Source of the DNA: Leucobacter musarum subsp. musarum
GTDB taxonomy: Bacteria > Actinomycetota > Actinomycetes > Actinomycetales > Microbacteriaceae
Direction: 5' to 3'
Assembly (NCBI RefSeq): GCF_001273845.1
Contig: NZ_JHBW01000062.1
Coordinates: 1 to 64,000 of the forward strand
Length of the DNA stretch: 64,000 bases
Under the pieces are notes generated by a model. That model worked only from the letters and a program-made list of their open reading frames with translations, did not search any database and was not told the DNA's origin. A program made the translations under genes and the position numbers. This document shows, piece after piece, positions 28,605 through 32,076 of the stretch; the first letter of the stretch is position 1; each line of letters begins with the position of its first letter.

Positions 28605-29882
28605 ATGACGGTTCCGGAGGCTCCCACCGCCGCAGAGGCGCATCCGCTGCGGTGGTGGGACGCGGGCGTGGCCCTGACGCTCGTTGTGATGGCGGGCGCC
28701 GGAACGATGGGGCTGTCTCCGGCGACTGAGCTCACGGCGACCGAGGTGGTGCTGACGTTCGGCGCCCTGGTCGCGATCGCGCTCTGGTATGCCGCGGTCG
28801 GCCGCTCTGCGATGCGCCGGGCGATCCGCGATGCGCCGGCGAGCGTCGGCGACACCGTGTTCCTCGTCGGGCTCGTCGTGCTGATGGGCATTGCGACGGC
28901 AATCGTGCCGTCATACGCGACACTGCAAGCGATCGGCTACCCGATCATCTGGACCATCGCGCGAAGCTACCGCTGGGCAGTGCTCTGGTGCGCGGTGCTG
29001 GCGGTGTCGCTCGGCTTCGGTTTCGTGCGTTTCGGCTTGTCGATAGGCGGCGGAAGCAGCATCGGCGCGGCAGTCGCGGTGCAGGCGGTCTCATTCGTGT
29101 TCGCGGTAGCGATGGGCACCTGGATCACGCGCATCTTCGCCGCGGGGGAGCGGCATCGCGAGGTGGCCGAAGCCTTGCGCCGTTCGCAGCGCGAAGTCGC
29201 CTCGCTCTCCGAGGCCGCGGGTGCGGCGGCGGAGCGCGAGCGGCTCTCGCGCGACTTGCACGACACTCTCACGCAGACGCTGACGGGATTGGTCATGCTC
29301 AGCGAGCAGGCGGATCGGGCGCTCGCCGCCGGCGATACGGTCGTGGCTCGGGATCGGCTCGACCGCGTGCGCTCTGCGGCGCGGGATTCGTTGCAAGAGG
29401 CGCGTGCACTGGTCGCGACGACGCAGCCGCTCGGCGATGGTGGGTTGGAAGCGGCGCTCGAGCGCACCGCCGCACGATTGCGGGCCGATACCGATCTCGA
29501 GGTGCGGTGCGAATACGCGATGCCGGGCGGCGTCGCTCTCGACCGTGAGCATCAGGTCATGCTGCTGCGCGCCGCCCAAGAGGGGCTCTCGAATGCTCGC
29601 AAGCATGCCCGCGCAGCTTCGGTGCAGGTGACGCTGGTGTGCATCGACGCTGAAGCGGTGCTGCGGGTCGACGACGACGGGGTCGGGCCGGCTCCAGAGA
29701 GTGCGCGCGGTGCGGAGGTTGGCGGCTACGGGCTGACCGGGTTGGCCGATCGCTTCCGCGGCGCGGGAGGATCCGTGCGCTTCGGCGCGGGCCCGAAGCG
29801 CGGGGCTCGTCTCGAAGCACGGTTGCCGATTGCCACACTCGCACCTCCATCAGACACACGTGAGTCACGGGAGGCCCAGTGA
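28605..29882 (+). CDS. NarL-type sensor histidine kinase
   Basis: 425 residues. About six N-terminal membrane helices with almost no external loop, a short coil, then HisKA_3 box ERERLSRDLHDTLTQTLTGL (phospho-His in RDLHD) and a HATPase domain (EGLSNARKHARAA; DDDGVGPAP; GYGLTGLADRF). The membrane-embedded sensor suggests a cell-envelope or drug signal, as in LiaS/DesK-like kinases. Follows the ABC permease by 38 nt; the response regulator starts at its stop codon. Confidence 0.9.
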   Translation: MTVPEAPTAAEAHPLRWWDAGVALTLVVMAGAGTMGLSPATELTATEVVLTFGALVAIALWYAAVGRSAMRRAIRDAPASVGDTVFLVGLVVLMGIATAIVPSYATLQAIGYPIIWTIARSYRWAVLWCAVLAVSLGFGFVRFGLSIGGGSSIGAAVAVQAVSFVFAVAMGTWITRIFAAGERHREVAEALRRSQREVASLSEAAGAAAERERLSRDLHDTLTQTLTGLVMLSEQADRALAAGDTVVARDRLDRVRSAARDSLQEARALVATTQPLGDGGLEAALERTAARLRADTDLEVRCEYAMPGGVALDREHQVMLLRAAQEGLSNARKHARAASVQVTLVCIDAEAVLRVDDDGVGPAPESARGAEVGGYGLTGLADRFRGAGGSVRFGAGPKRGARLEARLPIATLAPPSDTRESREAQ

Positions 29883-30520
29883 TGGTGCGGATACTGGTCG
29901 TCGACGATCACCCGATCGTGCGGTCGGGGATCTCGGGCTTGCTCGCCACGGAGCCCGATTTCGTCGTCGTCGGCGAGGCGTCCTCGGGTGAGGAGGCACT
30001 CGCACTGGTCGCCGAGGCCGAACCCGATGTGGTGTTGATGGATCTGCGGATGCCCGGTATGGGCGGGGTGGAGGCGACGCGTCGTCTGGTGCATCTCGCT
30101 GATGCGGCGCCACGGGTGCTCGTCTTCACGACGTATGAGGAGGACGATCAGATTCTGGCCGCGATCGAGGCCGGGGCGAACGGATACCTGGTGAAGGCGG
30201 CACCCGCTGAGGAGCTTGCGGCCGGGGTGCGCGCGGTGGCGGCGGGGCAGACGGTATTGGCCCCGTCGATCGCCGCGCAACTGGTGCTGCGCGCAGCAGG
30301 CGGAGCGCCGGGCAACGCAGGTGCGCCGATTCGGTTGACGCCTCGAGAGACCGAGATTCTGCGCCTCGTCGCCGAGGGGCTCAGCAACCCCGCGATCGCT
30401 GGTCGATTGTTCATCGGCGAATCCACGGTCAAGACCCACCTGCTGCGGATATACGAGAAGCTTGGCGTATCTGATCGCACGCGGGCGGTCACCCGCGCGA
30501 TGGAGCTTCGCCTCATCTGA
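29882..30520 (+). CDS. NarL/LuxR-type response regulator
   Basis: 212 residues: receiver domain (D8, D9, phospho-acceptor D54 in VVLMDLRMPGMGG, K in NGYLVKAAP) and a LuxR-type helix-turn-helix (LTPRETEILRLVAEGLSNPA; TVKTHLLRIYEKLGV). Partner of the kinase just upstream. ATG at 29882 shares a base with the kinase stop; a GTG at 29879 would give a 4-nt overlap. Likely controls the ABC transporter, perhaps through the palindrome at 26707. Confidence 0.9.
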   Translation: MVRILVVDDHPIVRSGISGLLATEPDFVVVGEASSGEEALALVAEAEPDVVLMDLRMPGMGGVEATRRLVHLADAAPRVLVFTTYEEDDQILAAIEAGANGYLVKAAPAEELAAGVRAVAAGQTVLAPSIAAQLVLRAAGGAPGNAGAPIRLTPRETEILRLVAEGLSNPAIAGRLFIGESTVKTHLLRIYEKLGVSDRTRAVTRAMELRLI

Positions 30521-30552
30521 CGCGGGCGCGCGGGAGGGCGGCCGACGCCCGG

Positions 30553-30739
30553 TTATCCCCACACACTCCCTGAGCACGCACCCGGCGCTGTGAGTAATTA
30601 CACCCATGTAATTCACATCCTGCGATGGGTCAACAACCCCGGAATGATGCGGATCTCGACGTAATTCGGCGAGGTGCTCTCCCAGAGTTATTCACAGTCA
30701 TCCACACCCCTGTGGAGAATTACGCCGATGTTATTCACA
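30553..30739. other. Cluster of DnaA-box-like 9-mers
   Basis: Seven matches to TTWTNCACA within 187 bp. Perfect: TTATTCACA at 30688-30696 and 30731-30739. One mismatch: TTATCCCCA 30553, TAATTCACA 30609, TCATCCACA 30698 (plus strand); TTACTCACA at 30589-30597 and TTCTCCACA at 30711-30719 (minus strand). The two opposed pairs (30589/30609 and 30711/30731) lie in a duplicated ~31-bp unit with 23 identical positions. The region lies between convergent gene ends, so it is not a promoter. No dnaA or dnaN is near, so oriC is unlikely; a DnaA-titration or reactivation site is possible. Confidence 0.55.
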
Positions 30740-30750
30740 CCTTGAGTCCG

Positions 30751-32076
30751 TCAGTGCGTGAACGCGGGGTGCGCGGTGGGGCGAGGCAGCGGGGCCTCAA
30801 GCGAGTCGAGATACGCGGTCTCTTCCCGGATCACGTCGAGCAGTGACTCCGCAAGGTCGAGAGTGAGCCCGTGTCGCACAACGATGCGCTGCACCGTCAC
30901 CTCCCCGAGATCAGCCGGGAGCGGGTACGCCGGCACGAGCCATCCGCGCATGCGGAGGCGATCGGAGAGATCGTAGAGCGTCCAGCGATCGGTGTGCCCC
31001 TCACGCAGCTTCCAAGCGAACACCGGGATCGTCGACCCGTCGCTGACGAGCTCGAACGCCGGCATCTCGCCGATGGCGTGGGAGAGGTGCAGGGCGACTC
31101 GCTGCGAGCCCTCTTGTACCTCGGTGTAGCCGGCTCGGCCGAGACGCAGAAACAGGTAGTACTGCAGCAGTACCTGCGCCCCGGGGCGCGAGAAGTTGAG
31201 CGCGAGCGTCGGGGTGTCGCCGCCTAAGTAGCTGACGCGGAACACCATCGACTCGGGCAGCGCTTCGGCGTCGCGCCAGACCACCCAGCCGAGGCCGGGA
31301 TACACGAGGCCGTACTTGTGGCCCGACGTGTTGATCGATGCGACTCGGGGCACGCGGAAGTCCCACTCGAGGGGCGGCTGCACAAACGGCGCGACCATGC
31401 CGCCCGACGCGGCGTCCACGTGAATCGGCACGTCGATGCCTCGCGCGCGTTCGATCTCGTCGAGCACCGCCGCGATCTCGGCGATCGGCTTGTACGCTCC
31501 GGTGTAGGTCACGCCGAGGATGCCGACGACGCCGATCGTGTGCTCGTCGACGACCGCGTCGAGCGCGCTGCCGTCGAGGGCCGGGTGATCCGCCGATACC
31601 GGCACATACCGCGCCTCGACCTCGAAGTAATTGCAGAACTTCTCCCAGCACACCTGCACGGCGCTCGACATCACCAGGTTCGGCCGAACGGTGTCGAGCC
31701 CGGCATCCTCGCGCCGATGCTGCCACCGTCGCTTCAGGGCGATGCCGGCGAGCATGCACGCCTCGCTGGAGCCGATCGTCGAGGTCGCCGGTGCCGCATC
31801 GGGGTCAGGGGCATTCCAGAGGTCGGCGATGATGCGCTGGCAGCGCTGCTCGATCTCGGCGGTCTGCGGGTACTCGTCTTTGTCGATCATGTTCTTGTCG
31901 AACGCGTCGCGGTAGAGTTCGGCGGCTTCGTCTTCCATCCAGGTGGTGACGAACGTGGCGAGATTCAGGCGTGCGTTCCCGTCGAGCATGGTCTCGTCAT
32001 GCACGGCGTGGTAGGCGTCGCGTGGCTCCATGCCGCGATCGGGAATGCGTCGTTTCGGTGCGGCATCGCGGAACAT
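30751..32076 (-). CDS. gadB: Glutamate decarboxylase
   Basis: 441-residue PLP enzyme that converts glutamate to GABA, consuming a proton. IGSSEACMLAGIALKRRWQ, HVDAASGGMVAPF (D221) and the PLP lysine in INTSGHKYGLVYPG (K254) are those of bacterial GadB. Slightly shorter than E. coli GadB (466). ATG at 32076 with AAGGAG 8 nt upstream. No GABA antiporter gene is next to it, unlike the usual acid-resistance pair. Confidence 0.93.
   Translation of the reverse strand: MFRDAAPKRRIPDRGMEPRDAYHAVHDETMLDGNARLNLATFVTTWMEDEAAELYRDAFDKNMIDKDEYPQTAEIEQRCQRIIADLWNAPDPDAAPATSTIGSSEACMLAGIALKRRWQHRREDAGLDTVRPNLVMSSAVQVCWEKFCNYFEVEARYVPVSADHPALDGSALDAVVDEHTIGVVGILGVTYTGAYKPIAEIAAVLDEIERARGIDVPIHVDAASGGMVAPFVQPPLEWDFRVPRVASINTSGHKYGLVYPGLGWVVWRDAEALPESMVFRVSYLGGDTPTLALNFSRPGAQVLLQYYLFLRLGRAGYTEVQEGSQRVALHLSHAIGEMPAFELVSDGSTIPVFAWKLREGHTDRWTLYDLSDRLRMRGWLVPAYPLPADLGEVTVQRIVVRHGLTLDLAESLLDVIREETAYLDSLEAPLPRPTAHPAFTH

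Follow-up and report, generated by a model that had tools for sequence, protein, structure and literature searches.

DnaA-box-like sites coupled to a conserved palindrome in Leucobacter musarum and beside crgA in other actinomycetes

The gap between the response regulator and decarboxylase genes

The window, by which we mean the whole 64,000-nucleotide stretch analysed from Leucobacter musarum subsp. musarum (on contig C90 of the draft genome), holds an intergenic gap at 30521–30750 between two convergent genes. The gap is bounded by a LuxR-type response regulator (RR) gene with a receiver and a GerE/LuxR helix-turn-helix domain (29879–30520, plus strand) and by a glutamate-decarboxylase-type gene (Pyridoxal_deC; 30751–32076, minus strand), both recognised by Pfam match. 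A sequence-only reading of this DNA had described seven DnaA-box-like sites (consensus TTWTNCACA) within 187 bp, two of them exact and in both orientations, lying between convergent response regulator and glutamate decarboxylase genes and away from replication genes. All of this was confirmed: the whole cluster is contained in the gap, its sites fall in 30553–30739 with five on the plus and two on the minus strand, and the flanking genes are non-replication genes. Boxes beside dnaA or dnaN, as at an oriC, are not what is found here, dnaA being located on another contig (C91:58730–60061); the cluster is rather of the non-oriC kind, with several closely grouped DnaA-box matches.

Across the whole window, 11 sites depart from TTWTNCACA by no more than one base, which is the number expected by chance (shuffle mean 11.0), and 7 of these 11 are those of the gap. 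The best 187-bp stretch in 300 first-order shuffles of the window held three such sites, and shuffling the gap alone (58.7% GC) 2000 times produced 0.20 on average and never more than three, against the seven observed. The sequence-only reading had stated that many equally dense clusters elsewhere in the genome would refute it; counted by exact matches only, such places are few. There are 35 exact matches to TTWTNCACA genome-wide, and at least two lie within 250 bp at five places, namely the window gap, the one that lies downstream of dnaA (C91:58.5 kb), the rplI–dnaB gap (C91:76.7 kb), C96:32.4 kb and C100:29.2 kb. The rplI–dnaB gap (C91:76624–76827; L012–L014, L126) has seven DnaA-box-like sites of its own, three of them exact, at a density almost that of the window cluster, and is situated about 17 kb from dnaA on the side opposite to crgA. 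As a structured RNA, the window gap gave no Rfam match and an ordinary fold stability (z −0.30), and an RNA element was rejected on these grounds.

The gap contains a duplicated unit, which the sequence-only reading had put at 31 bp; the duplication is real, with a length of 35 nt and 77% identity between the copies. Unit 1 (30588–30622, plus strand) matches the unit model R1 at E 1.4e-5, being itself among the inputs of R1, and unit 2 (30710–30744, plus strand) follows at 122 bp start to start, a distance that is mostly 130–136 bp in relatives. Each unit includes a palindrome of the form AATTACA-N4-TGTAATT, with zero mismatches in unit 1 (palindrome 1, 30596–30613) and two in unit 2 (palindrome 2, 30718–30735). 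Unit 2 displays the fuller pattern. Box A (TTATTCACA, 30688–30696, plus strand), an exact DnaA-box match that starts 30 bp upstream of palindrome 2, and box B (TCATCCACA, 30698–30706, plus strand, one mismatch) are direct, box C (TTCTCCACA, 30711–30719, minus strand, one mismatch) is inverted and abuts the palindrome, and the order is A+, B+, C− and then the palindrome. A second, likewise exact TTATTCACA site (30731–30739, plus strand) is on the right arm of palindrome 2 and may be a by-product of that arm. In unit 1, TTACTCACA (30589–30597, minus strand, one mismatch) takes the box C position and overlaps the left end of palindrome 1, and TAATTCACA (30609–30617, plus strand, one mismatch) overlaps its right arm. 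The remaining site, TTATCCCCA (30553–30561, plus strand, one mismatch), lies 43 bp upstream of palindrome 1, outside the register of 29–32 bp described below, in which unit 1 has no box upstream of its palindrome. Because the sites at 30589–30597, 30609–30617 and 30731–30739 overlap palindromes, the seven 9-mers need not all be DnaA boxes; the sequence-only reading of a non-oriC cluster of DnaA boxes is partly supported, the cluster holding more than boxes. In the spacer between the units, the 24-bp stretch AACCCCGGAATGATGCGGATCTCG (30635–30658) recurs with a 96% match at a different place in another Leucobacter genome (L034 in G031) and may be a separate site in its own right.

The composite module in Leucobacter and beside crgA

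The 38 Leucobacter units compared, all picked by their palindrome, have the form CTGTGGAT, 0–3 nt, and AATTACA-N4-TGTAATT-C. Ten of the 14 palindrome arm positions and seven of the eight positions of CTGTGGAT are invariant or nearly so, and the central four bases are variable; palindrome and adjacent box are about equally conserved in these 38 units. The right arm usually reads TGTAATTC followed by G or A (26/38). Conserved arms around a variable centre would be expected where a dimeric DNA-binding protein adjoins a DnaA box, and the palindrome resembles a binding site for a dimeric protein of the helix-turn-helix type. A second protein is implied, since the palindrome is no DnaA box, is conserved to the same degree as the adjoining box and keeps a register with other boxes. 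The alternative offered by the sequence-only reading, sites of another regulator, would therefore also be partly right. BldD, WhiA and MtrA were considered as candidate partners by their known motifs, and no partner is named here. Some Leucobacter (L066, L067, L040) carry a near-perfect double module, which consists of a palindrome-like stretch, TTATCCACATGTGGATAA and the palindrome, and beside L040 there is a gene reading like an AMP-ligase.

An RR match at E ≤ 1e-40 was obtained in 52 of the 54 genomes of the genus, paralogues counted. RR loci were inspected in 38 cases, and, with one lacking a 3′ end (L115) left out, 37 orthologous loci with a readable 3′ flank were compared (29 of 30 from the RR search, seven further ones and one MAG contig). 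Between one and four units lie within 500 bp of the RR stop codon at 16 of these 37 loci, and none there at 21; L. chironomi DSM 19883 has four. Unit spacings are 130–136 bp in 16 of 22 cases, 225–226 bp in three, 121–122 bp in two (the window included) and 89 bp in one, and since the 130–136 bp spacings are not consistently multiples of three, a coding array was rejected. Of the 21 loci with none, those of G005 and G032 are preceded by a unit lying about 3.4 kb upstream of RR, and those of G016 and G023 are followed by units about 4 to 5 kb downstream. In G015, also among the 21, one unit (L151) sits behind the glutamate decarboxylase gene, there 22 kb from the RR gene. Other inverted repeats were seen behind the RR gene as well, without an array at L110, L111 and L119 and after the array at L122.

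The spacers between units are homologous and strongly diverged (mean alignment z 4.1 within and 2.95 between genomes), and they retain a degenerate GGATCCGCGTGAATYCGC and a GTTTCCCACAGG shortly ahead of the next CTGTGGAT, the degenerate GGATCCGCGTGAATYCGC at a place similar to that of the 30635–30658 stretch in the window. As plain DNA, the gap matches 5 of 60 genomes including its own, the other four by short stretches only. Because so few genomes match in this way, it is the motif that is conserved and not the sequence, and the conservation in relatives that the sequence-only reading looked for is found at the level of the motif. The far-side neighbour of the array differs among species (GAD, SIP, GntR, another regulator or a PfkB-like kinase), which argues against the array serving one promoter; neighbour genes were read by eye from open reading frames, save those with a Pfam or tblastn match. 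Regulation of the decarboxylase gene as the main role was rejected because other RR arrays have a different neighbour, although the unit in G015 sits behind the decarboxylase.

Outside the genus, the pattern GTGGATAATTACA-N4-TGTAATT was scanned in one genome per species across 84,980 species. It gave 26 records, comprising 19 non-Leucobacter actinobacterial-type contigs, five Leucobacter and two from other phyla. For 18 of the 19 non-Leucobacter actinobacterial-type records, no more than 334 bp separate the match from the end of crgA, and the remaining one has its match at most 341 bp from a rhomboid gene. Records without crgA (7/26) are the five Leucobacter ones and the two non-actinobacterial ones, and these last two are probably due to chance. 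Two of the 19 are MAG contigs labelled Candidatus Fonsibacter lacus (L068) and Bifidobacterium breve (L075); they resemble freshwater actinobacteria in their crgA locus and probably result from mis-binning.

Flanks of crgA were then chosen by crgA, independently of the element. At the order level, a CrgA match was present in 118 genomes, of which 91 were used, the 27 weakest-scoring ones, including all of family f10, being left out, and one flank of 2 bases (G083) was dropped; for other orders of the class, the 30 best of the CrgA matches in 93 genomes supplied 26 loci, of which two short ones were dropped. A palindrome with at most one mismatch is present in the 3′ flank at 31 of 90 order-level loci (0.16 expected), and one with at most two mismatches at 49 of 90 (2.7 expected). 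The corresponding figures for the other orders are 9 of 24 (0.01 expected) and 18 of 24 (0.7 expected). At the level of one mismatch it is missing from 59 of the 90 order-level flanks, with families f8 (0/8) and f15 (0/6) having none.

DnaA boxes accompany the palindrome at these loci. Within 60 bp of it there are 40 exact TTRTYCACA boxes, in 27 of the 32 palindromic crgA loci of the order, against 0.12 expected, and a box starts 29–32 bp upstream of the palindrome in 21 of the 32 (shuffles mean 0.10, maximum 2); the 32 loci were counted on longer flanks than those of the 31/90 count, and the genome of the window (G000) was left out of the register count. The same register recurs in 15 of 19 named loci, as well as in all 17 of the Leucobacter crgA loci compared, the latter having been picked for a palindrome with CCACAG nearby, so that they show the register and not its frequency. 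The own genome has a module beside crgA at C91:41.9 kb (L125), 17 kb from dnaA, and the window array is best taken for the second locus of a more widespread module.

Position relative to dnaA and palindromes elsewhere

In the draft genome the window (C90) and dnaA (C91) are on separate, unjoined contigs, and origin proximity is taken from closed relatives. In 14 closed Leucobacter genomes, R1 finds 18 loci at E ≤ 0.002, distributed over 13 genomes, all of which are 0.5–6.3% of genome length from dnaA, 13 of them within 5%. Ten are of the crgA type at 19–39 kb from dnaA (seven seen beside crgA, three assigned by distance), six are the RR locus at 127–223 kb, and two are elsewhere, 22 kb from dnaA; five of the RR-locus matches (G004, G017, G026, G028, G074) had contributed units to the model. 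Orthology to two syntenic places accounts for most of these origin-near loci, which therefore represent few independent events. R1 matches at E 0.002–0.006 include far loci, at 703 kb (G004), 566 kb (G005), 585 kb (G028) and 342 kb (G061) from dnaA. Further origin-near palindromes (L304, L305, L306, L307), 17–32 kb from dnaA, have TTATCCACA within about 30 bp and are at places that look unlike the crgA gap.

Palindromes with at most one mismatch number 0–6 per genome in 46 genomes, and the reversed-pattern control gave 0 in all of them. Taken alone, 25 of 42 such palindrome loci in closed Leucobacter lie within 8% of genome length of dnaA and 17 beyond. Eight of the 17 far loci carry the AATCACAACGGTGTAATT form, which in the loci inspected overlaps promoter-like sequence upstream of a whiB-type gene. 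At C19:49350–49367 of the own genome G000 (L049), and at L038 and L284, a promoter-like sequence precedes such a gene and shares its −10 region with the palindrome; at L049 this sequence reads TTGACT, 17 bp, TGTAAT. The whole WhiB from L038 has a Pfam match, and a 60-residue WhiB piece has none. An exact AATTACA-N4-TGTAATT also occurs about 140–160 bp upstream of the thymidine kinase gene in G006 (L285) and G003 (L286). Upstream of nrdH the own genome carries a palindrome with two mismatches, but the NrdR consensus is of other symmetry.

A candidate control site for DnaA

Clusters of DnaA boxes near oriC are a known kind of element, and those of Streptomyces coelicolor and Bacillus subtilis were reportedly described by Smulczyk-Krawczyszyn in 2006 and by Okumura in 2012, respectively. 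According to excerpts of two reviews, these clusters repress untimely initiation (PMC4585315, PMC5742627), and an excerpt of a further review states that initiation is early after deletion of six B. subtilis clusters, which are yet said to play no significant role in initiation (PMC5295017). The suggestion of the sequence-only reading that such control would be new for this group needs to be narrowed accordingly, near-oriC clusters having already been reported in these two species (PMC4585315 and PMC5742627, as excerpted). They resemble the present module as clustered DnaA boxes outside but near oriC in Gram-positive bacteria, whereas the excerpts describe no second-protein palindrome (PMC4585315, PMC5742627, PMC5295017), and here the boxes are in register with one. 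The composite module, its place beside crgA and the Leucobacter array would be the new aspects, and in the open-licence PMC literature we recognised no description of a DnaA-box/palindrome element in the crgA gap or of the array.

Among the control loci of E. coli, datA is placed at 94.6 min, about 10% of the map from the origin at 84.6 min (PMC4585315, in excerpt). Like the module, which in closed relatives lies at 0.5–6.3% of genome length from dnaA, it is non-coding and origin-near and combines DnaA boxes with a site for a second protein (IHF in datA, a putative partner here), but the partner site and the sequence differ, the second site of the module being a palindrome. The DARS loci are farther from the origin, at 17.5 and 64.0 min (PMC4585315, in excerpt), and have a core of three boxes, one opposed to two, with conserved spacing, to which DARS2 adds sites for other proteins (PMC5742627, in excerpt). 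The orientation pattern of the module (A+, B+, C−), with box A in a common register to the palindrome, may be compared with that of DARS1 and DARS2; on the other hand, DARS2 requires IHF and Fis, and both DARS loci are farther from the origin than the module. The palindromes of parS and of nucleoid occlusion are likewise short, few in copy and in many cases origin-near, but the module differs from this type in its four free central bases and in the DnaA boxes attached. Its palindrome sequence is also unlike the known parS or Noc sites.

Taken together, the register of box and palindrome, the position in convergent gaps and the location near the origin are best read as a control site that would bind DnaA and a partner protein. 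To the proposal that the cluster is an origin-near control site of this kind, comparable to datA or to the DnaA-box clusters and served by a putative partner, we give an even chance of being right, on sequence grounds. The gap cluster forms an array in which a composite module, made up of DnaA-type boxes abutting AATTACA-N4-TGTAATT, occurs in two diverged copies. We infer that DnaA and a putative dimeric partner protein bind the module jointly, with an effect on initiation: modules near the origin would be duplicated soon after initiation, and the duplicated modules would take up or inactivate DnaA and thereby help prevent re-initiation, for which datA in E. coli and the oriC-proximal clusters in B. 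subtilis and Streptomyces offer a parallel. Leucobacter has one such module beside crgA, about 20 kb from dnaA, to which many species add units behind or near RR, 127–223 kb away. Placement beside the origin would make titration or a datA-like action likelier than reactivation. The control of DnaA supply after the manner of datA or DARS, which the sequence-only reading had proposed, would still be the best single reading, but it had foreseen neither the palindrome for a second protein nor the module beside crgA in other families and orders.

The same observations can be arranged around the palindrome instead, as the site of an origin-domain DNA-binding protein that serves segregation, nucleoid layout or division control, with the boxes as accessories that couple it to initiation. 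A palindrome conserved as strongly as the adjoining box (in units picked by the palindrome), box-bearing sites that cluster near the origin, many of them in the gap beside the cell-division gene crgA, and the low palindrome count per genome against an empty reversed-pattern control would all suit such a protein. Its role does not, however, require the coupling and register of the DnaA boxes, and 17 of the 42 palindrome loci in closed Leucobacter are beyond 8% of genome length, some of them on promoter-like sequences; we regard this explanation as unlikely, though a serious contender. For the palindrome taken alone, an ordinary transcription factor is favoured by the copies that precede whiB-type genes in this genome and in relatives, and the thymidine kinase gene in G003 and G006; such a factor, with DnaA as co-regulator, would act through operators on crgA, on RR, or on an antisense or 3′ transcript, and some Leucobacter arrays do lie upstream of a GntR gene or another response regulator gene. 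Yet the far-side neighbour changes while the array stays, the gap shows neither an RNA family nor an unusual fold, and, being convergent in the window and where crgA faces a rhomboid or isomerase gene, it offers no ordinary promoter; operators of this sort are likewise unlikely as the main explanation.

A dispersed or mobile repeat without host function would account for tandem homologous units, for their patchy presence behind RR and for the displaced unit of G015, but the copies are few, occupy syntenic places and have a similar anatomy in different orders, and one exact pattern matched 0 viral contigs; we hold this to be very improbable. A phage or mobile element was rejected on the absence of that pattern from viral contigs and on the 0–6 palindromes (at most one mismatch) per genome. 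A chance pile-up of AT-rich 9-mers, which would agree with the lack of any excess across the whole window, is refuted by the shuffles, none of which went above three, and by the conservation of the motif in relatives, and we attach practically no probability to it.

Returning to the DnaA-binding control site, a wider proposal can be put forward tentatively, with distinctly less than even confidence. Actinomycetes may possess their own counterpart of datA and DARS in a conserved origin-near element beside crgA, in which DnaA boxes are in fixed register with a palindrome for a putative dimeric protein; Leucobacter would have multiplied this element into arrays of units of about 132 bp behind the RR gene, and the same protein would read the whiB promoter, tying initiation to division control. 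The loci datA and DARS and their partners IHF and Fis are known from proteobacteria, and, to our knowledge, the means by which actinomycetes restrain DnaA once initiation has occurred are poorly understood. The Leucobacter arrays provide natural copy-number variants, from 0 to 4 units, for comparison, and the recurrent crgA-side module, with its boxes and one palindrome, presents a defined target of about 50 bp, from which a result could extend to many genera.
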